Source: Rugalucina vietnamica
Lineage: Eukaryota > Mollusca > Bivalvia > Lucinida > Lucinidae
Length of the DNA stretch: 64,000 nt
Direction: 5' to 3'
Assembly: GCA_964017185.1 (NCBI GenBank)
Contig: OZ024871.1
Coordinates: forward strand, 56,905,226-56,969,225
Shown: positions 5,896 through 61,659 of the stretch, piece by piece
Layout: each line of letters opens with the position of its first letter
Position numbering within the stretch: position 1 is the first letter of the stretch
Translations under genes and position numbers: made by a program
Notes under the pieces: generated by a model
Seen by the model: only the letters and a program-made list of their open reading frames with translations
The model's database searches: none
Told to the model about the DNA's origin: nothing

Positions 5896-8800
5896 TTTTT
5901 TTTTTTAAATAATCCTGAGAATTGCAAAATACCCAAGTATTTCATAATAGTCACTAGGGATGTCATTCGGTGTCAGATTTAGGGTTCGGACGTTCGGAAA
6001 CAAACATCCGGAAGGTTCGAACATTCACATTTTTTTGGATCAGGTCATAATATTGCATATACATTTACATGTATGTTAATCGAGTGTTCCCTTGAATGAA
6101 CATTCATACTCAAGAGTTTCTGAGCTGGGCGTTGTTTCCGTTGATATGACGCAGAAACGAAACGAAATCCCATGTAATTTATGAAACTGCAACGGAACGT
6201 TTACAGAGTTCCCATTTTGTCGAATGGCGCGTCAGCAAAGAAATTTAATTAAGTCACATTATACATGTAGAAAAAATATGGTCTTCTGTATTTGTTTCTT
6301 CTTTGCATAAACGGGTCAGCTTAAGAAACCGCATATTTGATTTGTCAAATTAAGATCATAGGAAGCATACTTGTTTCGTTTAATCCCAAAACATATCTGT
6401 TAATCATCAGTGATCTTACATGTTGTTTTGTTGGGCAACGGTCTGTATAATTATGATCAATTATTATTTTTAAAACTTGATAAGTGTGAATCCTATCGTT
6501 TTCAAAAGGAAACAAAAGAGGCCAATTATCATCTTTAATCCTTTCTTTGTTTAGCGTCGCTTCCCCTTGACCTGTATTGTCCCGTTAATCAGTTACCTTA
6601 TTGACCTTTGACACTACATGTTTAGCAATTCGTATTAAATACCATGTTTCATATTCTGCTAAGTAGATATTGTGTATTTTTGTGATATATTAATAGAAAT
6701 TTAACTTAATATTGGACACATTGATTTTTAGCGAACGTCCGGATACTGAAATTTGGATCCGAACTTCGGTATGGGATCCGAAGTCCGAACGTTGGGACTC
6801 CGGTTGACATCCCTAATAGTCACAAAGGCTCTGATTTAAACTTTCTGACTAAGTGCAATTAAAATATGAGCCGCTGTTTTAGAAATCCTGACATGTATAG
6901 GCCAAAATTTAATGGGCTTTGTCTTGGCAACATGTGAAGCTGTTACACTTACCATTTTCATCAAACAAAGTGAAGACAATATTAACAACATGGTCTGTCA
7001 GATCTACATGAGCAACAGTCTTAGCCACATGCTTCAGAGTTTCTGTAAATAGAACATATACATCATTAAAAATGTATTGAAATCACAAGTCCTTGCAAGC
7101 ATTAAGCGATGGCGCTTATTTTCAAAAGCAAGTTCTATTCCATGCGCAAGATACCACCCACCTTTCAATAGAACATTTCATTTCTGAACATTAGTTTGTC
7201 TGCAATACAAACCATAACACTTTACATTAATTTTCATTTTCTTTACTTTCATCTTATCATCAGGTCTTATAGGCACCGCTGTGGGCGTTTTGTGGTCAAA
7301 TGTGGTGGAGGAAATAGGAAAATGGGCGCCCACTACCCTGTCATATGCCTTGACCTGGATTTGAAACTAGACAAAAGAGGTGAAAAGTGAGTGCATTATC
7401 CAGTACGCTATCCAGTCTCCAAGCTGAGCTGCCCCATAAACTGGGTAACAGTATCTTGATTAAAGCTATATCCTTACCTGGGTCTATAGACACCCCAGCA
7501 AGATGAAAGAAACTCAGAGCTTTATCAAAATCAGTTATGTTCTGTTCCTTACCTGGGTCTATAGACACACCAGCAAGATGATAGAAGCTCAGAGCCGTAT
7601 CAACATCAGTTATGTTCTGTAGAAAACTCCAGAAGTTCTCATATTCTTCAAAAGATACACCCTGTGGATAGTATAGAATGAAAGCAATTACAGACTGCAA
7701 ATGCTACATCTACTTGAACCAGAAAATTTCCAACATCTTTAAGCTTTCATCGAGGTTTCTTCATAAGGTGCTTATAATTACTGTTAGAAAAGAAACATTT
7801 TATCTTCAGTTAAGTTGGGTAAATCAGTCCTGCACAATCTCAAATGAAGTGCTCTAAGAGCTAATCTGTATCTAGTTTGCAGTTTCAACAGCAAATCATT
7901 TATTTGTTATTTTGAGTCATTTCCTGGTCGAAAATCTTGTGGACAGATGATTAATCAGGCTCATATATTACATGATTTGCAATTTATATATATTATGTGG
8001 CAAGCCTGTGTAGTGATTCATTACTATGAAATGACTACAAACTACATGTTTTACTTACTTTTGCATTTTCATCATTCTTGAATGTCCGTTTCACCCTACG
8101 CTGCATTAGTGCTTTCTTTTTATCCGGGAATCCTGCGTAGGTCAACAATAATGCACAGAAATCTCGCTCAGATATTCTGCCATCTTCTGGTTCATACCGA
8201 TTGAACTAAAATAAAATAAAATAAATTATTCCGAGAATAAGCACTTTCTTGGTACAATGTATTCAGATGAGAAGCAATCTCACACTTTCATTAGTCGAAC
8301 AAAACAAAGACATAGATGAGATGAGCCGCAACATGAGAAAACCTGGTCTTCCGGGTTTCTGACCTGGTCTGATGCAAACCGGTCTGTGCAGTTACAGATG
8401 ATCGCTAGATGCTTGAAATTTCGGATTTACAAAGTAGAGGAATTGTACTATCCGGGTAGCGAAAACAAAGGCGATGATCAGCTGTGCATTTACTGCACAG
8501 CTGATCTGCGCTTTTGTTTTCGCATATGCAAAAATCTGGTTTCCTCATGATGCGGCTCAGATAGTAAACACACGAAGTGACAAATTGATTAAGTTCTATT
8601 GTGAGAAAATATTCACAAGATGGTTCATTCCAGTCTGTTTGTCTGATTAAAGTTTTACATCCCAGTCACCAATTTTTCAGCTGATTGGGGTGTGCCACTA
8701 TTTCCTAAGCACTTGATGCAGGAGATAAAATGTCTTGCAGAAACTCAGTAAGGGATGCTAGGACCTCTCAATCTAGAGTGTGATGCTGTACCACATTTAT

Positions 8801-11800
8801 ACTTCCCTAGTTTCATTCAGAAACTATTTGTTTTATGAAGTCTAAATGTAATGAGCCGCATCGTGAGAAAATAGGATTTTTGCCTATGTGAAAACAAAGG
8901 CGCAGATCAGCGCCTTTGTTTTCGCTACTTGGATAGTACAATTTCTCTTCTTCTTATATCCGAAATTTCAAGCTTCTAGCCTGCTTCTGTGACTGTACAG
9001 GTCCGTTTGTGTCAGACCTGGTCGGAAACCCTTAAGACCGGTTTTCTGGTATTTTTTAATGAGGTCTAAATGTAATCATTATATTACCTCTAGCTTGAGT
9101 ATTTCCTTCTGCAGCTCGTGTTGGAACTTGATAAATTCTTGAGCTGTGAGTTTCTTGTTACCATCAGCACCAAAGAAGTAGGTCTGTAGTGCCGAACTGA
9201 CCTCTCCTACCACGTTACCTGTCACAGCATGGTCTCTGTGCCGCTTACCTACACTGGTCTGACTCCGCAGGATGTTACGTACCTATATACAATGGAATAA
9301 CTTGTAAATATTGGGCAGTATAAGATTCTTGCACATTATCTAAGGTATTCCTAGTTTTGGCCAGGGTCAGAACTTTCTGTCTTATCCTAGTAAGTTCTCT
9401 AACCCTGTGGGCATGAGTTTCTGTTTAACATTAGTTGAATATGATGTCATATGACTAAAAATTATGTATTTTACTGCAATTACACAGAAAGGTCACAGAG
9501 CTTATATACCCAATCTTGAGGGTAGGGATGATGGCATTATGTTATCAAACATGGTGCGGGAAACCAGAGAACCCTGAGAAAACCACCCACCTTGGATGGG
9601 CAACCACTACCCTGTCACATGCCTTGACCTGGAGTTTGACTTGGACTGCAGAGGTGACAAGCGAGTGTTATCCACTACATAATTTGATTGTAACGACGAA
9701 AGACCCCAAAAACATCCATATTTTGATCTCAAAACGGTGGAAATAAAAGAGCTTTCAATGTGTAAATCAAGCATTAAAAGATTTATTTTACTTCAGAACC
9801 ACTTTGTTCAGGCTCGTAAAAGATGTATAATGCAATAACGTCTTTTCCTTGGCTAAAACTTCAATCCAGACCTACCCTTCCAAATTCTTTATTGTCCACC
9901 TCACCGTCCCCATTGATATCAAACATCTGAAAGGCTATCTCAAAGTTCCTCGGCGGGGCTGAAATCACAAATATAACATACATCACATACTGCAAATACA
10001 CTCACATCATAGTGACTCAGACCAATAACTTTGTGTCTTGTAATACAAGGGCATAAAATTGACTATAACAGAATTATATCAAATTAAATGTAAATACACT
10101 TGAACTTTCATGTATTACATTGTGAGAAACAAAAAGTCTTATCCACATGCTCCAAGCTTCTTAAAGATGTTCATTGTTGTTAATACTTACTGGACAGTAC
10201 AGTGAGTAGAAATATGTAATCTGAGAAAGAAATGAGTCCACACTCGCCCAATTTGTTGAAGATGTTGTTAATACTTACTGGACAGTACAGTGAGTAGAAA
10301 TATGTAATCGGAGAAAGAAATGAGTCCACACTCGCCAAGCTTGTTGAAGATGTTGTTAATACTTACTGGACAATACAGTGAGTAGGAATATGTAATCTGA
10401 GAAAGAAATGAGTCCACACTCGCCCAGCTTGTTGAAGATGTTGTTAATACTTACTGGACAATACAGTGAGTAGGAATATGTAATCTGAGAAAGAAATGAG
10501 TCCACACTCGCCCAGTTTGTTGAAGATGTTGTTAGTACTTACTGGACAATACAGTGAGTAGGAATATGTAATCTGAGAAAGAAATGAGTCCACACTCGCC
10601 CAGCTTGTTGAAGATGTTAATACTTACTGGACAATACAGTGAGTAGGAATATGTAATCTGAGAAAAAAATGAGTCCACACTCACCCAGCTTGTTGAAGAT
10701 GTTGTTAATACTTACTGGACAATACAGTGAGTAGGAATATATAATCTGAGAAAGAAAGGAGTCCACACTCGCCCAGTTTGTTGAAGATGTTGTTAATACT
10801 TACTGTACAGTACAGTGAGTAGGAATATGTAATCTGAGAAAGAAATGAGTCCACACTCGCCCAGTTTGTTGAAGATGTTGTTAATACTTACTAGACAATA
10901 CAGTGAGTAGGAATATGTAATCTGAGAAAGAAATGAGTCCACACTCGCCCAGTTTGTTGAAGATGTTGTTAATACTTACTAGACAATACAGTGAGTAGGA
11001 ATATGTAATCTGGGAAAGAAATGAGTCCACACTCGCCCAGCTTGTTGAAGATGTTGTTAAATATGTAATCTGAGAAAGAAATGAGTCCACACTCGCCCAG
11101 CTTGTTGAAGATGTTGTTAATACTTACTAGAGAATACAGTGAGTAGGAATATGTAATCTGAGAAAGAAATGAGTCCACACTCGCCCAGTTTGTTGAAGAT
11201 GTTGTTAATACTTACTGGACAGTACAGTGAGTAGAAATATGTAATCGGAGAAAGAAATGAGTCCACACTCGCCCAGCTTGTTGAAGATGTTGTTAATACT
11301 TACTGGACAGTACAGTGAGTAGAAATATGTAATCTGAGAATGAAACTAGAAATTGGCTGCAAGCAAGGCTTTCAGTATACCCCCTGCAAAATTATCTGAA
11401 GCTGGCCAATAACTTCCTAAGTCAAACACACAGAAAATTTGTCAAAGATATCTTTTTAGTATTATAATTCTTCATGTACATCCTCAGTATGCCAGTCACA
11501 TCTATAAGATATTAAAAGAATGTATTGAAAGCTTGATGTTGATTTCACTGTATGCACTATGATCATTGTTGTTTATCATGAGAAATGGTAAAAAATTGGC
11601 TAAGTTAAAGAAAAGCTGAAAATTTGTCAAAAATTATTTTTTCAGCATGAAAATTATTCATGCACATCTAAAATATATCTGGAACAAATCTACAAAAAAT
11701 TTAAAAGAAACACTGAAAGCCCTATGAGGAGTTGATTTCACAAAGTATGCACCACCAACCATTATTGTATATAAGAAATAGTCAAGAAATGGCTATGTTG

Positions 11801-14800
11801 AAAAATGATGTAAATTTGTCAAAAATCACTTTTTCAGTACATGTATTATAATTCTTCATGCACATCTTCAATATGTGTGGAACATGTCTGCAAAGTATTG
11901 AAAAGAAATACTGAAAGCCCTGGGAGGAGTTGATTTCACAAAATATGCACTACCAACCATTATTGTATATAAGCAATGGTCAAAAAATGGCTATGTTAAA
12001 AATGCTGTAAATTTGTCAAAAAATTAATTTTTCAGTATTATAATTCTTCATGCACATATTCAATATGTGTGGAACATGTCTGCAAAGTATTGAAAAGAAA
12101 TACTGAAAGCCCTAGGAGGAGTTGATTTCACAAAATATGCACTACCAACCATTATTGTATAAGCAATGGTCAAAAAATGGCTATGTTAAAAATTGCTGTA
12201 AATTTGTCAAAAATTATTTTTTCATCATCATAATTCTTCATGCACATCTTCAATATGTGTAGAACATGTCTGCAAAGTATTGAAAAGAAATACTGAAAGC
12301 CCTAGGAGGAGTTGATTTCACAAACTATGCACTACCAACCATTATTGTATATAAGCAAAGGTAAAAAAATGGCTATGTTGAAAAATGCTGTAAATTTGTC
12401 AAAAAGTATTTTTTTATCATTATAATTCTTCATGCACATCTTCAATATGTGTGGAACATGTCTGCAAAGTATTGAAAAGAAATACTGAAAGCCCTAGGAG
12501 GAGTTGATTTCACAAACTATGCACTACCAACCATTGTTGAATATGGCAATTATCGAAAATTGGCTAAGTTCAAAATGCTGTAAATTTGTCAAAATTTATT
12601 TTTTCAGCATCATACTTCTTCATGCATATCTTCAATATCTCTGGCACATATCTGCAAAGTATCAAAACAGAATATTGAAAGCTGTAGGAGGAGTTGATTT
12701 CACAAAGTATGCACTATTAGCACTATGGCAAACATTCTATGCATAGGTTTAAAAAGTCCCATAACTCTTGCAAAACTGACCCTTTGGCCCCTAAATTCAT
12801 ATCACACATGTGTTGTCTAATGGTGCAGGTGTGTTGAAAATTTGAAGAACATCGGGCAAAAACTACTTAAGTTATTCAGCAAAGATGTCAAAATGTTGAC
12901 GGAATGACGGAATCACGGAGTCACGGAATCACGGAATTACGGACAGGCTGAAAACAGTATACCCCCCTTAAACTTCGTTTTGCGGGGGGTATAAATATAT
13001 CTGGAACAAATCTACAAAGAATCTAAAAGAAACATTGAAAGCCCTAGGAGGAGTTGATTTCACAAAGTATGCACTACCAACCATTATTGTATATAAGCAA
13101 TGGTCAAGAAATGGCTATGTTGAAAAATGATGTAAATTTGTCAAATATCATTTTTTCATTATTATAATTATTCATGCACATCTTCAATATGTGTGGAAAA
13201 TGTCTGCAAAGTATTGAAAAGAAATACTGAAAGCCCTAGGAGGAGTTGATTTCACAAACCATCATTGTATATAAGCAATGGTCAAAAAATGGCTATCTTA
13301 AAAAATGCTGTAAATTTGTCAAAAATTAATTTTTCAGTATTATAATTCTTCATGCACATCTTCAATATGTGAGGAAGATGTCTACAAAGTATCAAAAAGA
13401 AATACTGAAAGCCCTTGGAGGAGTTGATTTCACAAAATGTGCACTACCAACCATTTTTGTATATAAGCAATGGTCAAAAAATGGCTATGTTGAAAAAAGC
13501 TGTAAATTTGTCAAAAATTATTTTTTCAGCATTATTATTCTTCATGCACATCTTCAATATGTGTGGAACATGTCTGCAAAGTATTGAAAAGAAATACTGA
13601 AAGCCCTAGGAGAAGTTGATTTCACAAACTATGAACTACCAATCATTATTGTATATAAGCAATGGTCAAAAAATGGCTATGTTGAAAAATGCTGTAAATT
13701 TGTCAAAAATTATTTTTTCAGCATTATAATTATTCATGCACATCTTCAATATGTGTGGAACATGTCTGCAAAGTATTGAAAAGAAATACTGAAAGCCCTA
13801 GGAGGAGTTGATTTCACAAACTATGCACTACCAACCATTATTGAATATGGCAATTATCGAAAATTGGCTAAGTTCAAAATGCTGTAAATTTGTCAAAATT
13901 CATTTTTTCAGCATAATACTTCTTCATGCATATCTTCAATATCTCTGGCACATATCTGCAAAGTATCAAAACAGAATATTGAAAGCTGTAGGAGGAGTTG
14001 ATTTCACAAAGTATGCACTATTAGCACTATGGCAAACATTCTATGTATAGGTTTAAAAAGTCCCATAACTCTTGCAAAACTGATCCTTTGGCCCCTAAAT
14101 TCATACCACACATGTGTTGTCTTATGGTGCAGGTGTGTTGAAAATTTAAAGAACATCGGGCAAAAACTACTTAAGTTATTCAGCAAAGATGTCAAAATGT
14201 TGACGGAATGACGGAATCACGGAGTCACGGAATCACGGAATTACGGACAGACTGAAAACAGTATACCCCCCTAAAACTTCGTTTTGCGGGGGGTATAATG
14301 AGTCCACACTCGCCCAGCTTGTTGAAGATGTTGTTAATACTTACTGGACAGTACAGTGAGTAGGAATATGTAATCTGAGAATGAAATGAGTCCACACTCG
14401 CCCAATTTGTTGAAGATGTTGTTAATACTTACTGGACAGTACAGTGAGTAGAAATATGTAATCGGAGAAAGAAATGAGTCCACACTCGCCCAGCTTGTTG
14501 AAGATGTTGTTAATACTTACTGGACAGTACAGTGAGTAGAAATATGTAATCGGAGAAAGAAATGAGTCCACACTCGCCCAGCTTGTTGAAGATGTTGTTA
14601 ATACTTACTGGACAATACAGTGAGTAGAAATATGTAATCGGAGAAAGAAATGAGTCCACACTCGCCCAGCTTGTTGAAGATGCTGTCAGGTTCTATATCC
14701 AACTCGATTTTCTCTAACTGCAAGAGAAAAAGTTATGTTTTGCGTGAATTTCTTACAAAATATAATGAAATTCAATGACTTGATTACACATCCAACATTC

Positions 14801-23800: not shown

Positions 23801-26800
23801 GCACGGACAGAAAATTGCCACTTTAAAATAGCCACATTGTGCATGGGAGTTTTCCAGAAGCCACACTAAATTTGTCCAAAGTGTTGGACACCTAGAGCAA
23901 TGGGACAATTGTTTATCCATATTTAAGAGCCTTGAATACCAAATGTGTAGGGGTTACCCCCCTTCATTCATTGACAATGTCCAAAACTTGCTCTTATGTG
24001 GCTAGGCACATAAAGCATTTTTGCCACCTTTGTATCAAATATGCTGATCCTTAGCCACGTATGTACCCTCTCATGGGAACGGACGGACGGACGACGGACG
24101 GACGGACGCCGGATCATGGCCATCCTATAAGCTCACCTTGTGAGCCTAACGGCTCAGGTGAGCTAAAAAATCTTTATTATCAAGAACTTTGAATTTGTGA
24201 GGCGACAAATTTGCAATAAGAGCTGTCGCAGGACAGCGTAGCTCGCCTGACTTGTGCTTTGTCACTACATCTGTTAAAATCTATGACCCATGACCTTGAC
24301 CTCAAGGTCACTCAGGTGGGTCATGATGGTACAACATAAAACTTCAGACCAATGCAAAGTATCAACTTGATCAATCTACATGTTCAAGAGATATAGACTT
24401 ATAAAAACATTAACCAAAACTTAAAGACAAAACTTCCAAGTCCGTGACCCTGACCTCAAGGTCATCCAGGTGAGTTGTGATGTACAGCATAAAACCCGAG
24501 ACCAATATCTATCAACATGCAAGTATCAACTTTATCCATCAACATGATGTTCAAGAGATTTAGACTTTAACCAAAAAATTTAACACAAAATTTCTAAGTC
24601 TGTGACCTTGACCTCAAGGTCACCCAGGGTAGGTCATGATGGTACTGCATAAAACTTCAGACCAATATCTACCAACATGCAAAGTATCAACTCGATCAAT
24701 CAACATGGTCAAGAGATATAGACTTACAAAAACTTAAATCAAAAACATAAACACAAAATTTCTAAGTCTGTGACCTTGACCTCAAGGTCACCAAGAGTGG
24801 GTCATGATGGTACTGCATATAACTTCAGACCAATATCTAGCAACATGCAAAGTATCAACTCAATCCATCAATATGGTCAAGAGATATAGACTTACAAAAA
24901 CTTTAACCAAAAACTTAAGCACAAAATTTCTAAGTCTCTGACCTTGACCTCAAGGTCACCCAGGGTGGGTCATGATGGTACTGCGTAAAACTTCAGACCA
25001 ATATCTAGCAACATGCAAAGTATCAACTCAATCCATCAATATGGTCAAGAGATATAGACTTACAAAAACTTTAACCAAAAACTTAAACACAAAATTTCTA
25101 AGTCTGTGACCTTGACCTCAAGGTCACCCAGGGTGGGTCATGATGGTACTGCGTAAAACTTCAGACCAATATCTAGCTGCTAAGCAACATGCAAAGTATC
25201 AACTCAATCCATCAATATGGTCAAGAGATATAGACTTACAAAAACATTAACCAAAAACTTAAACACAAAATTTCTAAGTCTCTGACCTTGACCTCAAGGT
25301 CACCCAGGGTGGGTCATGATGGTACTGCGTAAAACTTCAGACCAATATCTAGCAACATGCAAAGTATCAACTTGATCCATCAACATGGTCAAGAGATATA
25401 GACTTTTAAAAAACTTTAACCAAAAACTTAAACACAAAATTTCTAAGTCTGTGACCTTGACCTCAAGGTCACCCAGGGTGGGTCATGATGGTACTGCGTA
25501 AAACTTCAGACCAATATCTAGCAACATGCAAAGTATCAACTTGATCCATCAACATGGTCAAGAGATATAGACTTTTAAAAAACTTTAACCAAAAACTTAA
25601 ACACAAAATTTCTAAGTCTGTGACCTTGACCTCAAGGTCACCCAGGGTGGGTCATGATGGTACTGCGTAAAACTTCAGACCAATATCTAGCAACAAGCAA
25701 AGTATCAACTTGATCCATCCACATGGTCAAGAGATATAGACTTTTAAAAAACTTTAACCAAAAACTTAAACACAAAATTTCTAAGTCTGTGACCTTGACC
25801 TCAAGGTCACCCAGGGTGGGTCATGATGGTACTGCGTAAAACTTCAGACCAATATCTAGCAACATGCAAAGTATCAACTTGATCCATCAACATGGTCAAG
25901 AGATATAGACTTTTAAAAAACTTTAACCGAAAGTGTGACGCGGACGCACACGTAAACGTAAACGCGCACGACCGAGGTGACTACAATAGCTCTATGCACT
26001 TCGTGCAGGCGAGCTAAAAATAAGTAAAAATATACATGGATATTTCCAAACTTCACCAGTCCTCTACTATTGAGCCATAAGCTCAACCCAAATTCAATTT
26101 CTATGCGGCTTCAAACATCTAACTGCTGAAAACTTGTTGGCATTATTACAAACTTCCCTTGACAACTTCACCACCTTTCTCCAATCCTCTGTATGAAACT
26201 GAACAGCTAGCATGTTATCAATACATGTATTAGGAAAATATTATCGAACAATGAAAAGACAAACAATTTTAGTTCACAAACTTTAACAAAAAATACTAAA
26301 TGAAACCAAGTCTGGGTCTTTCCTTCACCAAAACATCTTATATAGGGAGGCTTAACATACAAATCATAAATAAACTCAACATAATAAGCAAACTAAACAT
26401 AATACAATAATGCAAAACTACAGAAAATTAATGAACCTATCCCAAGGGTGGGGCAATTTGTATCCAACAAAATTCACCAATATGTTTGACCCTGTCAGCT
26501 GAACTATGCTAATTTATATCCACTCTGCACCCATGATAAGAAAATGCTATGAGTAAGAACATTGTCTATGGAATCTTTTTGGCATCGGACAGTGAACAAA
26601 TCAAGCTAGAATGAGACGTCAGTATAGTGGTCATCCTGGCAGGGTCAAAACAATCTCGATATTTTTCAATGAGCATTGGAACAAAACTCTAGAAAATCAA
26701 TAAAACATCCACTCATTTCCTAGAACATTCAGTTGGGTTGGAGACACAAGCAACATCTGAGGCACAAAATAACAACTCAGCCTAGACAATTCTCATTATC

Positions 26801-36200: not shown

Positions 36201-39200
36201 TGTGACCTTGACCATTTATACAAACTTTCATTCACTCTTCCTAATAATGCTCCACATAAAGTTTGACTTTGATTGGCCAAGCGGTTTCAGAGAAGATGTT
36301 TGAATATTATGGTCATACACATGTATATAGCCCCGGGGCAGGATATTTTCATAAACATGAATATTCTGTCCATTTGCTCATTCCTAGCAAGTTTTTTGCC
36401 ATTTATTGACATTTTTCAATTTTTTCACATTCAAATGCATGGGCGGCCTAAGTTGACCTTGCCGTAAAAAAGGTCAAGGTCATCCCAGGGTCATGATTTA
36501 TACAAACTTGTTGGACAAATTGTTGGAATTCCGATGGGTACAAATTGCGCACCTCTCGTAGCTGATTTATTTTTATACTGCTACGAAAGAGATTTCATGG
36601 ATTCTCTTAACCATGATAATCAAGCTGATGTTATCGAGGCTTTTAATTCCACATCTAGGTACCTCGATGACCTTTTGAACATTGACAACCCTTATTTTGA
36701 AGGTATGGTCAATCAAATTTATCCACCTGAACTTCAGTTGAACAAAGCTAATATCTCAGATACCGAAGCCCCCTTTTTAGATCTACATCTTTCTGTTGCA
36801 AATGGATTTGTTTCTTCTAAAATTTATGATAAGCGCGATGACTTTGATTTTGATATAGTAAATTTTCCTTTTTTGGGTGGTGACGTTCCTCGTCGTGCTT
36901 CTTATGGTGTATACATTTCGCAACTTATTAGGTTTGCTAGAGTCTGCAATCATGTTACAGACTTCAACGCTCGAAATAAATGTTTAACGGCAAAACTTCT
37001 CCAACAGGGCTATCGGTATCATAAACTTCGAAAAACCTTTTCTAAATTTTATCGGAGACACTATGAATTGATTTCCAAATATAATGTTGGGTTAAAGACA
37101 CTTTTAAGTGAGGGCCTTTCGGAACCTGAATTTTATGGTGACTTGGTTTACAAATTATAGAAACTTAACGGAATAAATGATTTTTCTCTTCAGTTCGGAA
37201 AAATCATATCACGTTACAGACGTATAGGTTATAACTTGAATGTTATGCGACAGTCTGCATGCTTAGTTTTTAACCCAATCATGGTTGATAACTATGCTGC
37301 CTTCTTTAATTGCACGCCGGTGGGTCGGGCGTCAGACTCTATGATGGCCCCGACTTAAAGCTATTCATTTTAGTTGGTTGGGGCCGGAGCTTCTTGTCTG
37401 TTGCTTGGCCCACCGGGGTCCAACTGGTGTTTTTCTTTTGCTCCGGAGTTAGTAGGTTATTCGGCGCCCAGGGATCTCCATCGTCGGGCAGCTTACTCAA
37501 TCTGTGAGTCCTGGTTTTTGATTCATCAGGATGTTTATCATGATTTATTTGTTTGTTCTTGATGATTCATTGACTAGTTAGAGATTCACCACGAGGACCG
37601 AAAAACTAACTAAATGTTGTGAACCACTGCAGAAGCTGAGGGTGAGGTTAGGTACCTGTAAAACCGGTTTAAGCCCGCCAGTAACTTTGTGTTACTGATC
37701 GTTCCAAGTCGATACTTCTGTAGTGGTTCTTTTTGTTTTATGTCTTGGTGTTTAAAATTTTTTGTGCTGTTGGCGCCTTATGTATGTTTTCATATTTTTA
37801 GTTAAGGTAACTGAGTGGCCACCTATTGGGAAAATAGCTGCTCATTCGGCTTACGATATGTTTCATGGTATAAGTACCTGATTGTTAGTTTGGTTTTTTC
37901 CCACCTCGGTTTTTGGAGTGGGAATCTTTTTCTGATTGCGCCTTTTCCTGATCTTTGCCTACTTGTACCTTTTTGTAGAGCTCCATTGCCTGATGCTTCA
38001 TGCCAAGTTTCAAAATCATAGGCCTTCTGGTTCTGGAGAAGAAGATTTTCAAAGGTTTTTGTGGTCATGTGACCTTGACCATTTATACAAACTTTTGTTC
38101 CCCCTTCGTAAGGATGCTCCACATGAAGTTTGGCTTTGATAGGCCTAGTGGTTTCAGAGGAGAAGATCTTGGAAATTGTGAACGGAGGACGCCGGCCGCC
38201 GACTGATGACGGACGACGGAGCATGGGTATACTATAAGCTCACCTGTGAGCCTTCGGCTCAGGTAAGCTAAAAAGACTTTTCAGCCATTATAACCAGCAT
38301 GTTTTTATGGAGAAAAATTAAAAATATTCTAAAATACCCTCCTATCAGGTCTATTGATCATGGTGGCATTTACAAGAGAAGAGGAATCGGCTTGAGAAAT
38401 TCTGAAGACAAATAAACACACATTGACTTTATCAAATCAGACTTACCACAGCCATGAGATTGTCTTTCTGGTTTGTAAACAAAAAGTTGTGAATTTTGTG
38501 TCTTGGCTTTTAATGGATTTATTTTTAACCAGGTACAGTTACATGCCTAGTCAGTAAGGATGCTAACCCAAGATCCAACATCTTGCAAACTTCTTTCATG
38601 AAAATATTTCTACAGCTGTTCTTCCTCTTATGCTGACTTAAGAACAGCATTTGTCAGTTAGTGGTGACAGAAATGAGCACCAAGTACTGGTAATCTGTAT
38701 CTGGCACAATGGTTAGTACCGGTTATAAATGACTATCACAATCACATGAACTTAGCTGTTGACCATGGATGGAGAGCATGAAATCAAATGAAACTAGAAT
38801 TATCAGAGGATCTGACTATAGCCCCGCTTCTGAGCTCTTTGCCAGGTTGAGAAAACAATGACGGGCAACAATCCCAAGCTATATCTTGTTAATATTGATG
38901 CACATAAAAAGATTGGTCAGACTCTGTCAATTTGTTCTCAAGATATTGAGCGGAAACAAAATTCTGACAGCAATCAAGGGCTGTAACTCCGTCAAAATTT
39001 TGCGAAAAATGACGGGCAACAATCCCAAGCTAGATCTTGTCAATGCTGATGTGCATACAAAATTTGGTTAGATTCTGTCAATTCGTTCTGAAGATATTGA
39101 GCAGAAACGAAATTCTGACATCAATCAAGGGCAGAAACTCCGTCAAAATTTTGTGAAAAAAATGATGGACAACAATCCCAAGCTAGATCTTGTCATTGTT

Positions 39201-42200
39201 AATGCGCATACAAAATTTGGTCTGATTCTGTCAATAGGTTCTCAAGATATTGAGCGGAAACAAAATTCTGACAGCAATCAAGGGCTATAACTCCATCAAA
39301 ATATTGCGAAAAATGACGGGCAACAATCCCAAGCTAGATCTTGTCAATGTTGATGTGCATACAAAATTTGGTCAGATTCTGTCAATTTGTTCTCAAGATA
39401 TTGAGCGGAAACGAAATTCAGACGTCAAACAAGGGCCGTTACTCCGTCAAAATTTTGCGAAAAATGATGGGCAACAATCCCAAGCTAGAGCTTGTCAATG
39501 TTGATGTGCATACCAAATTTGGTCAGATTCTGTCAATTTGTTCTCAAGATATTGAGCGGAAACAAAATTTTGACGTAAATCAAGGGCCATAACTCCATCA
39601 AAATTTCGCAAAAAATGATGGGTGACAATCCCAAGCTAGATCTGGTCAATGTTGATGTGTACACAAAATTTGGTCGGATTTTGTCATGCCATTTTTAAGA
39701 TATTGAACGGAAACAAAATGTTCACCGAATGACGGAATCACGGAACCACGGAGACAGGGTGAATCCAGTATAGCCCCACTTTTCCAAAGCGGGGCTATGA
39801 CTAAGAATTTTGCAAAACTAGTGCATTTGTTACCGTTTATGAATCTTTTTCATTCCTGATTATTTTTTAACAACACTCTGCCACAAAAGACAACTGTCTA
39901 CACAAAACAATCATATAAATACATATAAATCTATGATGTGTCATGAATATGATATGAAATACATGTATAGTATCAATAATTTTAATCATTTGAAACTTAG
40001 TTGCACTTGAAGTTTCGGCATTTATTGGGACATGGTGGAATTCGTTACTACACTTTCGTATAAAACAAAATTAATACTATGATAGGAATAAACCCACAAT
40101 ACAATGAAACAGTCCCTTTCGAATATTACATGTATGTTTCAGATTCAAATGAATATGTCATTTTTTATAAATCACATAAAGAAATTTTGACTATCAAGTT
40201 TGGAAATAAAAACATTTTTAAACTAAGCAGTGGTCGTGTCATAAATCAAATTGCACTGAAAAGGACTAGCATGAGAAAGGAACTGCAATGCATTATTAAT
40301 CTGTTCAAACTGTTGTAGTGACTGCCCTCATATCTTTAATTTCGTAACAAAGTTTACACTAACCTGTGGATCAAATCTCTTGAATGAGTCCAGTCCTAGA
40401 CCTACAATGAAATACACAATGATCAGTTTAGATATTAAATTAGTCTTGAACAAACTGAATGTCATCCACCCATCAAAGGCATGTAAAGTCACCCAGTGAA
40501 TCATTTTTATATTGTATTTTAGTGTAAATGTAAAGCCCGACCCAAAATGCTCAGATGAAAGCAAAAGGTCACAAGGTTTTCTTGAATTTGAAAGTTGGAA
40601 ATCAGGTTGGTGAACATTAAGGGCAATGCAAATGCAAGTTTTAGCTTTTGCAAATTGAAAACCAAGTCCTATTAAAGTAGGAAGAGTGCCAAAAAAACTG
40701 CAAATAATGAGAAAATAGAATATTAGGATGAAGGATTGATGTCTCTAAGCTGATTATAAGTTCATATTTTGTAGGGATGTCAACCAGAGTCCGAACGTTC
40801 GGACTTCGGATCCCGTACCGAAGTTCGGATCCAAATTTTAGCGTCCGGACGTTCGCTAAAAAATCAAAATGTCTAATGTTTAGGTAAATTTCCATTATTA
40901 TATGACAAAAATACGCAATATCTGCTTAGCAGAATTTAATACAAAGTGTCAAAGGTCACGGTCTAACAGGTTTAAAGAGGTAAACGGGACAATGCCGGTC
41001 ACGAGGAAAGAAAGGATTAAAAGTGATAATTTGCCTGTTTTGTTTTCTTTTGAAAACGATGTGATTGACACTTCTCAAGTTTTAAAAATAATAATTATAC
41101 AGACCGCCGCCCGGCAAAACTACAATAGATATGTTTTGGGATTAAAGAAAACAAGTACATGTACTATGATCTTAATTTGACAAAATCAAATGCGGATTCT
41201 TAAGCTGACCCGTTTATGCAGAGAATACCATTAAATTTTCTACATGTGTAACAATGTCATACAGTTAGTTTTAGCATCATGATGTTTGAATGTAGATAAA
41301 ATTTCCTAAACTGCATGGAGTTTCGTTTCTGCACCACATCAACAGAAACAACGCCAAGCTCAGTAACTCTTGATTATGAATGTACTTTCAAGGGAACACT
41401 CGACAAACATCCATTTATGTATGGTTATATTCATACATATGTGCACATACTGATAAGTATGATCTGATCCGAGAAAAAAATGCGAACGTTCGAACCATCC
41501 GGATGTTTGTTTCCGAACGTCCGAACCTTAAATCTGACACCAAATGACATCCCTAATATTTTGTGCTCAGAATGACTAAACTACTGTGTCAAACAACCTA
41601 CAGGAGCAAAAACATCGATTTACACATACTGGTCTCAATGGAACCTCTTAATAATTCAAAGGTCATTATTATTCAAAGTATACCTTCAGGTTGCAGTACT
41701 CCAGGGGTCAAGGACCTCACAAAATCCTCCGGTGTCATAAACACCTCCCAGTCTCCGCTGCCTGTATGCACTTTCAATGTGGCAAAGTAGCGAAATATCT
41801 TGTCGGGTGTCGAGTAAGCTCGGATTCTGTCTTCATACCCAATCATCTTGTAAAAGTGAAATATACGTCCCATATATTTCATATAGTATTTGTGGACAAA
41901 ATTGTCCTGATCCAACTGATATTGAAGACAAAGACCAAATTGATGAAAGTCTGCACAGTATTATATGAGCCGCCTCGTGGGAAAACCAACAATGTGGTTT
42001 CCCAACAGGTCCGACACAAACCGACCTGTACAGTCACAGAAGATGGCTAGAAGCTTGAAATTTTGGATATAAGTAGAGGAAGAATTGTACTATCCGAGTA
42101 GCGAAAACAAAGGCGCTGATCAGCTTCGCGGTTACCGCGAAGCTGATCTGCGTCTTTGTTTTCGCCTATGCAGATTATTGGTTTTCCCATGAGGTGGCTC

Positions 42201-47325: not shown

Positions 47326-49152
47326 GCGTGTGTTCGGGGTTTTCCAATGGTACCATTTGTACCAATTGTACCAAAATTGGTGCAAATGGTAAAAATGGTA
47401 ATACCTATTGGCAAAAGAATTAGGACCTGTATTTGCACATCTCTTCCAGCAGTCAATCAATACGGGTGAAATCCCCAAGGAATGGTGTTTTTTTCTCTAC
47501 ATTCAGGATGGCATATCAGTATTTCGATTGCTTTCTATAGATTCTAGACATTTTTTTTCTAATTTTGCAAGGTCACGACTATTGCAGAAAAGCTCAAAAA
47601 GATAACAAAAAATATAATTGTAAGTTTTGAAAAAAAAAGAGTACAAGTATGAGCTTTTGAAAAACCCCAAGTATCTGTGATATTTGTCCACTTTTCAAGA
47701 AAGGTGACAGGTCCCTTGCTTGTAATTACCGCCCAGTTTCTTTGACTTGTATTCCTTGCAAACTTCTAGAACATATTGTCTGCTCAAATATCATGGGTCA
47801 TCTTGACCAGTATAATCTTTTGTCGGACAAACAGCATGCATTCAGGAAATGGCATAGTTGTGAAACTCAGTTGATTACAGTAATAAATGATTGGGCAAAA
47901 ATATTGGACAAAAAGGGTCAGGTTGACACTTTTATTTTGGACTTTGAAAAAGCTTTTGACACCCCTCCACATGAACTTCTTAAAAGCAAATTGTTTAGTT
48001 ATGGTATAGGTGGAAAGACATTGGAATGGATAAATGCTTTTTTGTGCTTCAGGCAGCAAAGGGTAGTAGTTAATGGTGTTAAATCTGACTGGGCCCCTGT
48101 TGTGTCTGGTGTCCCTCAAGGCACCGTTCTCGGTCCATTGTTGTTCTCCTTGTACATAAATGACATACCCGTTGGCATTGACTCTCAAATCAGGCTTTTT
48201 GCTGATGACTGTGTTTGTTACCGTGAAATTAGAACAGTAGAAGATACATTAAAACTTCAGAAAGACATTGACCTTTTAGGGAGCTGGGCCCGAAAATGGG
48301 GCATGAGATTTCAACCTGTCAAATGCAACATGATGCAGCTGACAAATAAGCGGATAAATAAAATTGAGGCCTCGTACACCCTCGAGGGAACGGTATTGGA
48401 AAATGTTAATAGTATTAAATATCTAGGTGTAACAATTACAAATGACCTCAAGTGGAATACCCATATCAATAATATCTGTACTAAAGCCAACAGAACACTT
48501 GGATTCTTGAAGAGAAACTTATTTTCTTGTCCCCAAGATGTTAAAGAAGCAGCTTATAAAGGACTGGTGCGCCCAGTCCTGGAATATGGAAGTTCTGTTT
48601 GGGATCCTCATACTAAATGCCTCCAGGAGGAATTGGAGAAGGTAGTACAGAATCGTGCCGCTAGATTTGTAACTAGGAATTATACTTTCGAGGAAGGTAG
48701 TATGACTGGCATTCTTGAACAATTCAAATGGGAATCTCTCAAGAAAAGGAGGGCGGATAATCGACTTATATTACTATACAAAGGTCTGAAGGGTAAAGCC
48801 AGAATACTTACAGATGACCTTATCCCAAAGACTAGGCGTTGTAGAAATAGCCACTCCAAGGCATTTCAGCTTCCATCTGCTAGTATAGAGGCCTATAAAT
48901 GTAGTTTCTTTCCCCAGACTATCAGGGACTGGAATGACCTCCCTGACTCTCTGTTTTCTACTGCTGAAATGTCAGATGATTGTGTGTCCAAGTTCGCTTT
49001 ACTCGTGCGTTCAAGGGACTAATTTCTCCCCCATCCGAACCCCCTGGTGAAATAATGTCATTTGGCGTGTCACCAGTAAACTATTCAGATTCAGACTAAT
49101 GGTACAAATGTTACCAACCAATGGTACCATTAGGAGAACCCCGAACACACGC
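47326..49152. mobile_element. GCGTGTGTTCGGGG inverted-repeat element carrying a LINE
   Basis: Ends GCGTGTGTTCGGGGTTTTCC and the complement of GCGTGTGTTCGGGGTTCTCC, with ATA outside on both sides. The subterminal parts are GGTACCATT-rich on each arm. Only about 130 bp belongs to this small element; the rest is an inserted LINE (47404-49101). Confidence 0.75.
47404..49101 (+). pseudogene. LINE reverse transcriptase, 5'-truncated, near-intact ORF
   Basis: The open frame 47742-49022 (426 codons, opening on a non-ATG) covers the RT thumb side of a CR1/Jockey-like LINE. It has the finger remnant NYRPVSLTCIPCKLLEHIV, DFEKAFDTPPHELL, the signature GVPQGTVLGPLLFSLYINDI, catalytic FADD, then the typical C-terminal NRAARFVTRNYTFEE and FFPQTIRDWNDLP. 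Upstream frame LAKELGPVFAHLFQQSINTG (47408) belongs to the same protein but is cut off by about 190 bp of foreign sequence (47486-47677) before ICPLFKKGD. No endonuclease is present. Ends in ATTCAGATTCAG. Confidence 0.88.
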
Positions 49153-60648: not shown

Positions 60649-61270
60649 CTAAGCTTCTGGAGCCCTTTTGACAACAACAGAGCAGGCAAATTTGTGAAAT
60701 CCCCAGTCCTTCCGTTGACAGTCAGTGCTACAATATAGATCTTGTGATGTGACAGCGGGCGCACCGCTTGAGTTCAGTACCTTCTTTTGGTTCACGGTAA
60801 TACAGTTAGCACAAACTCCTGTGTCACCAAAATCGTCGTCGCTGTCAATATTAGCTGCAAGGAAGTCCTTGAGAATTTCCTGCTCCTCTTGTGTAGAAGC
60901 CGGAAAGAAAACACCAGATGTTTGGTTATCAAGATGGGCGGAGTTGCTTGTCTCGCTACTGGTTTCAGATTCCACCAGCACAGATTGATCGGCTCTTTCC
61001 TGATCTATGACCTCCAGTGAAAGGTCCAGTTCCTTGGGGACGGATTCCGGTTCCTTTGAAATGGTTGCTTGAGAAACAGAACGCTTCGGAAAGGTTGCTT
61101 TTTCAGCAGCCTTCTTCTACAGGAAACGTTGCTGTCTTCTTCTAACTCGTCTTCTTGCAGATGGCGGTTTCTTCTTTTTCTTCCGAGGATTCACAGGAAG
61201 TGAAGAGTCGACCTTGGCATCATTATCAGCTTTGGCGGGAAATTTACATTTCACAAAAAGTGACACATTT
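60649..61270 (-). pseudogene. Broken reading frame with basic stretch and MYND-like finger
   Basis: The minus strand reads, from about 61250, PVNPRKKKKKPPSARRRVRR, then an in-frame stop after QQRFL (about 61115). It then stays open to the TAG at 60649, through an acidic Ser/Glu-rich linker and CANC ... YCSTDCQRKDWGFHKFAC. The last part fits the second half of a MYND finger (C-x3-C, H, C), and CANC fits its first pair, but the usual middle cysteine pair is missing. The basic PPSARRR style is seen in ORF1 proteins of invertebrate retroelements, so a LINE ORF1 remnant is the leading guess; a decayed host gene is the alternative. Confidence 0.5.
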
Positions 61271-61299
61271 TCCAGATTTCTGGTCAACTTCCATTCAAA

Positions 61300-61659
61300 T
61301 CACAGACACCAAAGAGTTGTTGTTAATGGCGTTAGATCTGACTGGGCTCCTGTTGTATCTGGTGTCCCTCAGAGCACCGTTCTTGGTCCCTTGTTGTTCT
61401 CTTTGCATATAAATGATATCACCACAGATATTGAATCGGAAATTAGACTGTTTGCTGACGATTGTGTTTGTTATCGTGAAATTGAAAATGTGGAGGATAC
61501 AGTGAAACTTCAGAAGGATATTGATCGTTTAGGTAGTTGGGCTCGGAAATGGGTAGTGCAGCATGATGTATCATGTAGCTGACGAACAAACGGACTAGTA
61601 AAATTCAGGCTTCTTACAAACTTGAGGGTACAGTGTTGGAAAATGCTGAAAGTATCAAA
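61300..61659 (+). pseudogene. LINE reverse transcriptase fragment, left part of a split copy
   Basis: Reads QRVVVNGVRSDWAPVVSGVP and then STVLGP where the intact copy has GTVLGP, catalytic FADD, ending near AESIK. A frameshift or stop near 61582 breaks the frame. It continues after the inserted retroelement at 62833. Confidence 0.88.

Follow-up and report, generated by a model that had tools for sequence, protein, structure and literature searches.

Exon-tail duplications that carry splice donors in a MICU1-like gene of the bivalve Rugalucina vietnamica

Introduction

MICU1 is a regulator of mitochondrial calcium uptake. In the vertebrate form MICU1.1, a single tissue-specific exon inserts EFWQ behind residue 181, at the junction of human exons 5 and 6, according to PMC8909990. 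Two other described systems start from tandem copies of coding sequence. In intron gain by tandem genomic duplication, as outlined in PMC4974935, exonic tandem copies supply new GT and AG sites. In the dual-specific arrays of polyubiquitin UBC, as outlined in PMC10809524, each unit of a coding tandem repeat holds a potential donor/acceptor site with an AGGT core, and the frame is kept regardless of the units used. Among the matches listed, none concerned an array in MICU1 or mollusc MICU1 splicing, as judged from titles and abstract openings.

The locus described here lies in a 64,000-nucleotide stretch of assembly GCA_964017185.1 (contig OZ024871.1, positions 56,905,226 to 56,969,225), referred to below as the window. 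Tandem copies of exonic sequence with splice motifs are present at two places in its MICU1-like gene, in an array after exon 5 and in a 75-bp pair at exon 9. The exon 9 pair corresponds to the AGGT case of PMC4974935, and the exon 5 array likewise consists of exonic tandem copies that supply GT and AG sites. The array departs from that outline in several respects: a donor that was already there lies within the copied segment, and the copies therefore lengthen an intron rather than create one; it holds 17 donors; and any new intron in it would be a putative one. With the UBC arrays it shares a coding tandem repeat, a potential donor/acceptor site per unit and a frame kept regardless of the units used. 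The AGGT core of UBC is absent, however, and is replaced by CAGTAAGT or close variants, with cleavage points one base apart, in an intronic setting and with a putative use.

In the comparison with MICU1.1, the gene is the same, and in both cases a short in-frame addition would lie N-terminal to the first canonical EF-hand, but the junction is another one, the sequence is unrelated and the source is an exon-derived array. The first-pass annotation had placed the array junction near the MICU1.1 site. By human numbering and the position of exon 4, the MICU1.1 insert would instead map some 36 residues upstream of it, where exons 4 and 5 meet in this gene.

Results

The gene and its exons

The gene looks like MICU1 by closest sequence, rather than MICU2 or MICU3. 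Joined exons 5-11 gave 5.6e-111 against human MICU1 structures, compared with best values of 1.3e-40 for MICU3 and 2e-35 for MICU2. The first-pass reading was right on the gene and the exon, on the donors and acceptors, and on the phase and the peptide. The exons referred to below are:

40364..40401, minus strand: MICU1 exon 4 (exact ends read by eye)
14609..14717, minus strand: MICU1 exon 5, the parent of the array, phase 1 at its end
9876..9958, minus strand: MICU1 exon 6, first canonical EF-hand, acceptor 4.2 bits
7553..7661, minus strand: MICU1 exon 9, donor CAG/GTAAGG (slash, cleavage point)

Exons 5, 6, 9 and 10 measure 83-109 nt. A simple weight matrix gave 4.2-9.7 bits for seven real MICU1 acceptors (4.2-5.4 for exons 6-8), an eighth row at 41861 having been dropped as the mere edge of a protein match. 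The AG-free zone of these seven is 16-47 nt, and in one of them it is shorter than in most array units; two have no match to the branch motif. The window contains 40 open reading frames of at least 90 aa, ten of which were scanned against Pfam. Four matched: two reverse transcriptases (one slightly under the cut-off), a short MYND match and a sub-threshold DUF809.

Anatomy of the exon 5 array

The array sits on the minus strand in the intron after exon 5. Each 88-bp unit combines the final 73 coding bases of exon 5 with the donor and nine more intron bases. Full units align to the exon 5 tail at 91-97% identity, mostly from exon base 32 to the end. The 17 GTAAGT donors noticed at first pass were confirmed from 14608 through 10190, a count that includes the donor of exon 5 itself, as was their near-uniform spacing: 13 of the 16 spacings are exactly 88 bp, and the remaining three are 3041 (a transposon), 148 (a unit that lost its donor) and 85. 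Deletions of 3 nt and 28 nt occur among the units. Across the whole window, GTAAGT is found 38 times on the minus strand versus 6 times on the plus strand. A 2953-bp element at 14298-11346 splits the array.

14299..14608, minus strand: proximal block, with the exon 5 donor, units with donors 14520, 14432 and 14344, and the 5' half of the unit that the insertion interrupts
11346..14298, minus strand: HINE-like (non-autonomous Helentron) insertion, 2953 bp
10176..11345, minus strand: distal block, with donors 11303, 11215, 11127, 10979, 10891, 10803, 10715, 10627, 10542, 10454, 10366, 10278 and 10190, and a donor-less unit around 11070
10089..10171, minus strand: far edge of the array, probably an older and degenerate unit, local score 40

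None of 1000 shuffles attained the score of this probable unit. Of 2767 pieces drawn at random from the window, 5 did so, the best with 74; pieces were left out only if they started inside the array, and a few of the 5 may overlap exon 5.

The insertion carries ~192-bp tandem repeats, a TATACCCCCC..GGGGGGTATA hairpin, an 8-bp microsatellite and a CTAG right end. Like the oyster HINE/Helentron elements outlined in PMC7492417, it has a left subterminal inverted repeat, a microsatellite, central tandem repeats, a T-rich target and no target-site duplication, the last if its start is TT. The 3' terminal palindrome of those elements was not evident on folding (177 of 200 shuffles of the last 60 nt folded at least as well), and the likeness is one of structure.

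Variation among units

Fifteen of the 73 coding bases vary across units, seven with variants shared by at least two units and eight as singletons. All seven shared variants are synonymous, against an expectation of 24-30% (P = 5e-5 to 2e-4). The singletons agree with the neutral expectation, 3 of 8 being synonymous (P = 0.30-0.45), and the two classes differ (Fisher P = 0.026), in a test of 15 sites from one assembly whose singletons could include sequencing errors. Counting exon 5, 7 of 21 site pairs show the four-gamete pattern, which recurrent mutation could mimic; leaving it out, 5 of 21 do. Exon 5 has a combination of variants present in no other unit, and it is one base apart from the units at 14520, 14432 and 11215. 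A point against the minisatellite reading given below is that neighbouring units are barely more similar than they are after shuffling (P = 0.051). No selection for retaining the donors could be detected when the linker (1 of 15 bases variable) was compared with the coding part (15 of 73; P = 0.29).

The array is probably a minisatellite within the intron that derives from exon 5 and trades sequence with it, the normal mRNA being made by a 14608-to-9958 join. A tandem duplication of the exon 5 tail, the donor and nine intron bases would have started it, probably at a short microhomology between exonic CAGCATCTTC and CAACATCTTC at the joint, and slippage or unequal exchange would then have enlarged it. 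Exon 5 would be the end unit, swapping sequence with the array. Because of this exchange, the shared variants would have arisen, or been filtered, while the sequence was coding, and the copies remaining in the intron would drift. One unit is cut in two by the HINE-like transposon, which must have inserted later; the array is the older of the two. The acceptor TTTCTTTCTCAG would be a chance product of a synonymous TCC/TCA change that spread with the units. Most mRNA would be expected to follow the normal join, with array sites rarely used or noise.

Candidate 30-nt exons

An AG exactly 30 nt upstream of the donor, noted at first pass in about ten units, is a real pattern and occurs in 12. The putative exons (first exon base/donor) are 14374/14344, 11333/11303, 11157/11127, 11009/10979, 10921/10891, 10833/10803, 10745/10715, 10657/10627, 10572/10542, 10484/10454, 10396/10366 and 10220/10190. 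Five units have CCG instead, at donors 14608 (exon 5), 14520, 14432, 11215 and 10278, and one further AG without a donor has its first exon base at 11069.

These sites could define microexons, with TTTCTTTCTCAG acceptors and GTAAGT donors splicing at least one 30-nt exon between exons 5 and 6. As had been claimed, the 30-mers are stop-free and phase-compatible with both exons (12 of 12 open and in frame, NYIFLLTV[LF][SY]), and the acceptors are good: they score 7.4-12.6 bits versus 4.2-9.7 for the seven real ones, and 10 of the 12 exceed the best of these. The branch-like site fared less well. CTCAT is present in 10 of 12 units, but its A is only 12 nt from the exon and it is missing from the other two; eleven of the 12 have a TATTAAC-like motif 44-47 nt away, but one or two AGs intervene. 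Before the 30-mers, the AG-free zone typically spans 20 nt (11 of 12), the one exception having 10 nt. A branch site for the array acceptors is thus not convincing, although as an argument against microexons this is weak, because two of the seven real acceptors have no motif match either.

Other observations also count against microexons, which we consider unlikely. The exon would be just 30 nt, with introns of 58 nt between adjacent units, and the insert would probably extend a hydrophobic helix ahead of EF-hand 1. Four of the seven shared synonymous sites fall outside the 30-nt segment, upstream of it, so the constrained sequence would have been the exon, not a microexon; the unit-unique changes look unconstrained, 5 of 8 altering an amino acid. 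The proposed role as an isoform generator is therefore not supported, and selection for the 30-nt peptide was set aside as the main reading on the same two patterns.

A typical array acceptor scores 10.6 bits versus 4.2 for the true exon 6 acceptor, an observation that runs against the minisatellite reading; because the array acceptors outscore that of exon 6, silence of the array is not obvious.

Candidate 87-nt exons

The sequence at each donor can also be read as CAG/TAAGT, which makes the unit-to-unit intervals testable as exons. All 15 testable intervals are open and in frame, the 16th, which spans the transposon, having been left out. Their lengths are 84, 87 or 147 nt, all multiples of 3, even across the 3-nt and 28-nt deletions. 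Each site could then serve as a donor (TCCA/GTAAGT) and as an acceptor (TCCAG/TAAGT), with the whole unit as an 87-nt exon, comparable to polyubiquitin. The acceptor scores, 3.8-5.8, overlap those of real exons 6-8, and 87 nt is near the size of exons 5, 6, 9 and 10. This dual use is nevertheless quite unlikely. Open frames throughout would arise by chance at about 0.08, not counting a further ~1/3 that we reckon for the unit length, and are weak evidence; the matrix score is modest; and unique changes are again unconstrained, with the amino-acid-changing singletons joined by a linker change that replaces I with T.

That all 12 30-mers and all 15 testable intervals of 84-147 nt are still open is another observation that runs against the minisatellite reading. 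A broader proposal combines both exon types: a living splice-site array of frame-preserving exons (87 nt via CAG/TAAGT or 30 nt via TTTCTTTCTCAG) would yield variable-repeat MICU1 proteins and feed synonymous variants back into the exon. We regard it as quite unlikely.

Decoy donors are structurally possible and very unlikely: distal GTAAGT sites would compete with exon 5's own and cut MICU1 output by premature stops and decay. In favour are the 17 GTAAGT in duplicated exon context and the translation from distal donors 14520 and 10190, which does give S-K-Y-stop through the linker GTAAGTATTAA that adjoins exon 5 itself. Against it, the proximal donor is equally strong (7.2 bits versus 6.3-7.2) and nearest to the acceptor, and there is no sign of selection for or against distal donors in the linker comparison.

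A second duplication at exon 9

7470..7544, minus strand: second copy of the exon 9 75-bp tandem repeat (68 bases of exon tail plus donor)

Both copies contain CAGGTAAGG and end in CAG/GTAAGG. The second donor starts at 7477, and read-through to it would add 25 in-frame residues in an open frame. Read by eye, the 68-base tail has six differences, three synonymous and three amino-acid changing (V to F, T to K and Y to F), the latter at residues common to human MICU1 and exon 9. This 3 to 3 split gives no clear sign either way of a selected isoform.

Two of six mid-size tandem loci span a MICU1 donor (P = 0.0026 for two or more under random placement, a comparison chosen after the fact). The six loci include the transposon's own repeat, and the eight donors include two approximate ones and leave out exon 2. 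A shared mechanism for the exon 5 and exon 9 duplications was not retained, given the post hoc choice and the approximate donors.

Discussion

Even if silent, the array is a natural experiment on splice-site choice: 17 GTAAGT donors in near-identical exon context compete for a single acceptor, and the gene is a conserved one in which choosing the wrong donor leads to a stop. It looks like a record of exon 5's synonymous history and lets one test directly whether intronic repeats and a coding exon trade sequence. If the living-array proposal were true, the array and the exon 9 copy together would show an animal gene in the act of assembling new exons and introns out of copied exon tails. Two duplications of an exon tail plus donor in MICU1 raise the testable question of whether such events occur often in this lineage and contribute to the gain of introns or exons.

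Exon 5 of MICU1 and its array

MICU1 lies on the minus strand of the window. Joining seven exons, from 14717 to 5523 (-), gives an open frame of 294 residues that matches human MICU1 structures (E = 5.6e-111), with MICU2 and MICU3 far worse. A 26-kb intron separates exon 5 from two upstream exons:

41861-41685, minus strand, exon 3, by protein match
40401-40364, minus strand, exon 4, short, ends placed by eye

The 88-bp array sits in the intron 3' of exon 5, each unit comprising 73 coding bases of the exon's tail, the donor GTAAGT and nine further intron bases. Seventeen donors are intact, counting exon 5's own, with a spacing of 88 in 13 of 16 cases; one unit is split by a 2953-bp element. 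The first-pass annotation's description of the sequence is confirmed, with a somewhat richer picture than it reported. At 10171-10089 lies a probable degenerate copy that aligns over most of a unit. Its score of 40 was attained by none of 1000 shuffles and by 5 of 2767 random pieces of the window (some possibly overlapping exon 5), and it has the appearance typical of an array's edge.

Variation among the units

The units were compared as 18 rows of 73 coding bases, omitting the transposon side of unit 11303 (units are named by donor position) and the donor-less unit past its deletion. Fifteen sites vary. The seven variants common to at least two units are all synonymous:

AAG/AAA, CTG/TTG, TCT/TCA, TCC/TCA, TTT/TTC, TTG/CTG, TCC/TCT

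With an expected synonymous share of 24-30%, depending on transition bias, this has P = 5e-5 to 2e-4. The eight variants seen once (three synonymous, five nonsynonymous) fit the expected share (P = 0.30-0.45); a comparison of shared with single variants gives Fisher P = 0.026. These counts are most naturally explained if the older variants originated in the coding exon, or were filtered there, before spreading to the units, with the intronic copies drifting at present.

All four combinations occur in 7 of 21 pairs of shared sites, and in 5 of 21 without exon 5; recurrent mutation instead of exchange is an alternative source of such pairs. Exon 5's combination of variants is found in no other unit, with units 14520, 14432 and 11215 each one base away. 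Similarity between adjacent units exceeds that of shuffled ones only marginally (P = 0.051).

Splicing potential of the array

The 30-nt microexon proposed in the first-pass annotation is open and in frame in all 12 units that carry it, as claimed. Its sites also look as good as was claimed, since on a generic weight matrix the scores are 7.4-12.6 bits for the 12 array acceptors that have a donor, against 4.2-9.7 for seven real MICU1 acceptors, and 6.3-7.2 bits for array donors, against 5.4-12.3 for six real ones. The suggested branch-like site is less convincing: CTCAT is present in 10 of 12 units, but it lies 12 nt before the exon and is absent from the other two. Eleven of the 12 units carry a TATTAAC-kind motif at a distance of 44-47 nt, separated from the acceptor by one intervening AG in some units and two in others. 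The branch-site argument against the array is weakened because, among the seven real acceptors, those of exons 6 and 11 have no such motif whatever and the AG-free zone of exon 7 (16 nt) is below the array's usual 20. The minimum sizes of exons and introns and the branch distances used here are general background values. At the distal donors 14520 and 10190, the two translated, the reading is S-K-Y-stop. The synonymous pattern does not point to the 30-nt peptide, since four of the seven shared sites fall elsewhere in the 73 coding bases.

The units may alternatively be spliced whole through dual-use sites. The context of most donors is TCCAGTAAGT, four units having TCTAG or TACAG, and a cut after AG rather than before GT gives an acceptor of 3.8-5.8 bits, overlapping real exons 6-8. 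Pairing each such acceptor with the donor that follows it gives 15 testable intervals, of 87, 84 or 147 nt, a sixteenth spanning the transposon and falling outside the set. All 15 are open multiples of three encoding a 29-residue peptide or close variants, and the frame of the 87-nt reading survives both array deletions. Because the neutral chance of the intervals staying open is ~0.08, with a further factor of ~1/3 for unit length by our own estimate, these putative exons are a lead rather than a result. The arrangement resembles the dual-specific sites of polyubiquitin as described in the available text of PMC10809524, but the array core is not AGGT.

A HINE-like element within the array

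The first feature of the interrupting element (11346-14298, -) is the hairpin formed by TATACCCCCC..GGGGGGTATA (z = -5.3 on folding); an 8-bp microsatellite and ~192-bp tandem repeats follow, and the element ends in CTAG. Its flanks, GGACTCA and TTTCATTC, rejoin into uninterrupted sequence as in unit 14344, with no target-site duplication provided that its first bases are TT; its insertion is later than array formation. The element matches the available description of oyster HINEs (PMC7492417) apart from the 3' palindrome, of which folding gave no evident sign. A second left end is nested within it at 12994.

Duplication of the exon 9 tail

7470-7661, minus strand, tandem duplication of exon 9 tail and donor, 75-bp unit (exon 9, 7661-7553)

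Seven intron bases past exon 9 lies a copy of the exon's last 68 bases and donor. Both donors are CAG/GTAAGG, with equal score; the copy is open and in frame, and use of the second donor would add 25 residues. Because the site is AG/GT, normal mRNA would also result if the copy were spliced out as an intron of 75 nt. The copy has six differences from the tail (three synonymous, three altering residues common to exon 9 and human MICU1) and one in the intron, too few for judging constraint. Of the six tandem loci whose period falls between 40 and 200 bp, two span a MICU1 donor (random placement P = 0.0026, post hoc).

Satellite-like tandem arrays also occur at 24352-25932 (169 bp) and 38857-39719 (151 bp). 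A 453-aa reverse transcriptase ORF at 47661-49022 (+) (RVT_1, 4.5e-32) probably belongs to a retroelement. A weaker second reverse transcriptase fragment at 61073-61579 (+), just under the Pfam cut-off, overlaps slightly with an ORF on the opposite strand (60652-61116, -) that has a short match to MYND.

Interpretation

The vertebrate MICU1.1 insert is EFWQ after residue 181, as given in the available text of PMC8909990; the array is one junction off from that position. The isoform generator proposed in the first-pass annotation is possible but unsupported, the synonymous pattern not pointing to its peptide. The array is best read, from its sequence, as an exon-derived intronic minisatellite that would share sequence with its exon and be mostly spliced out.
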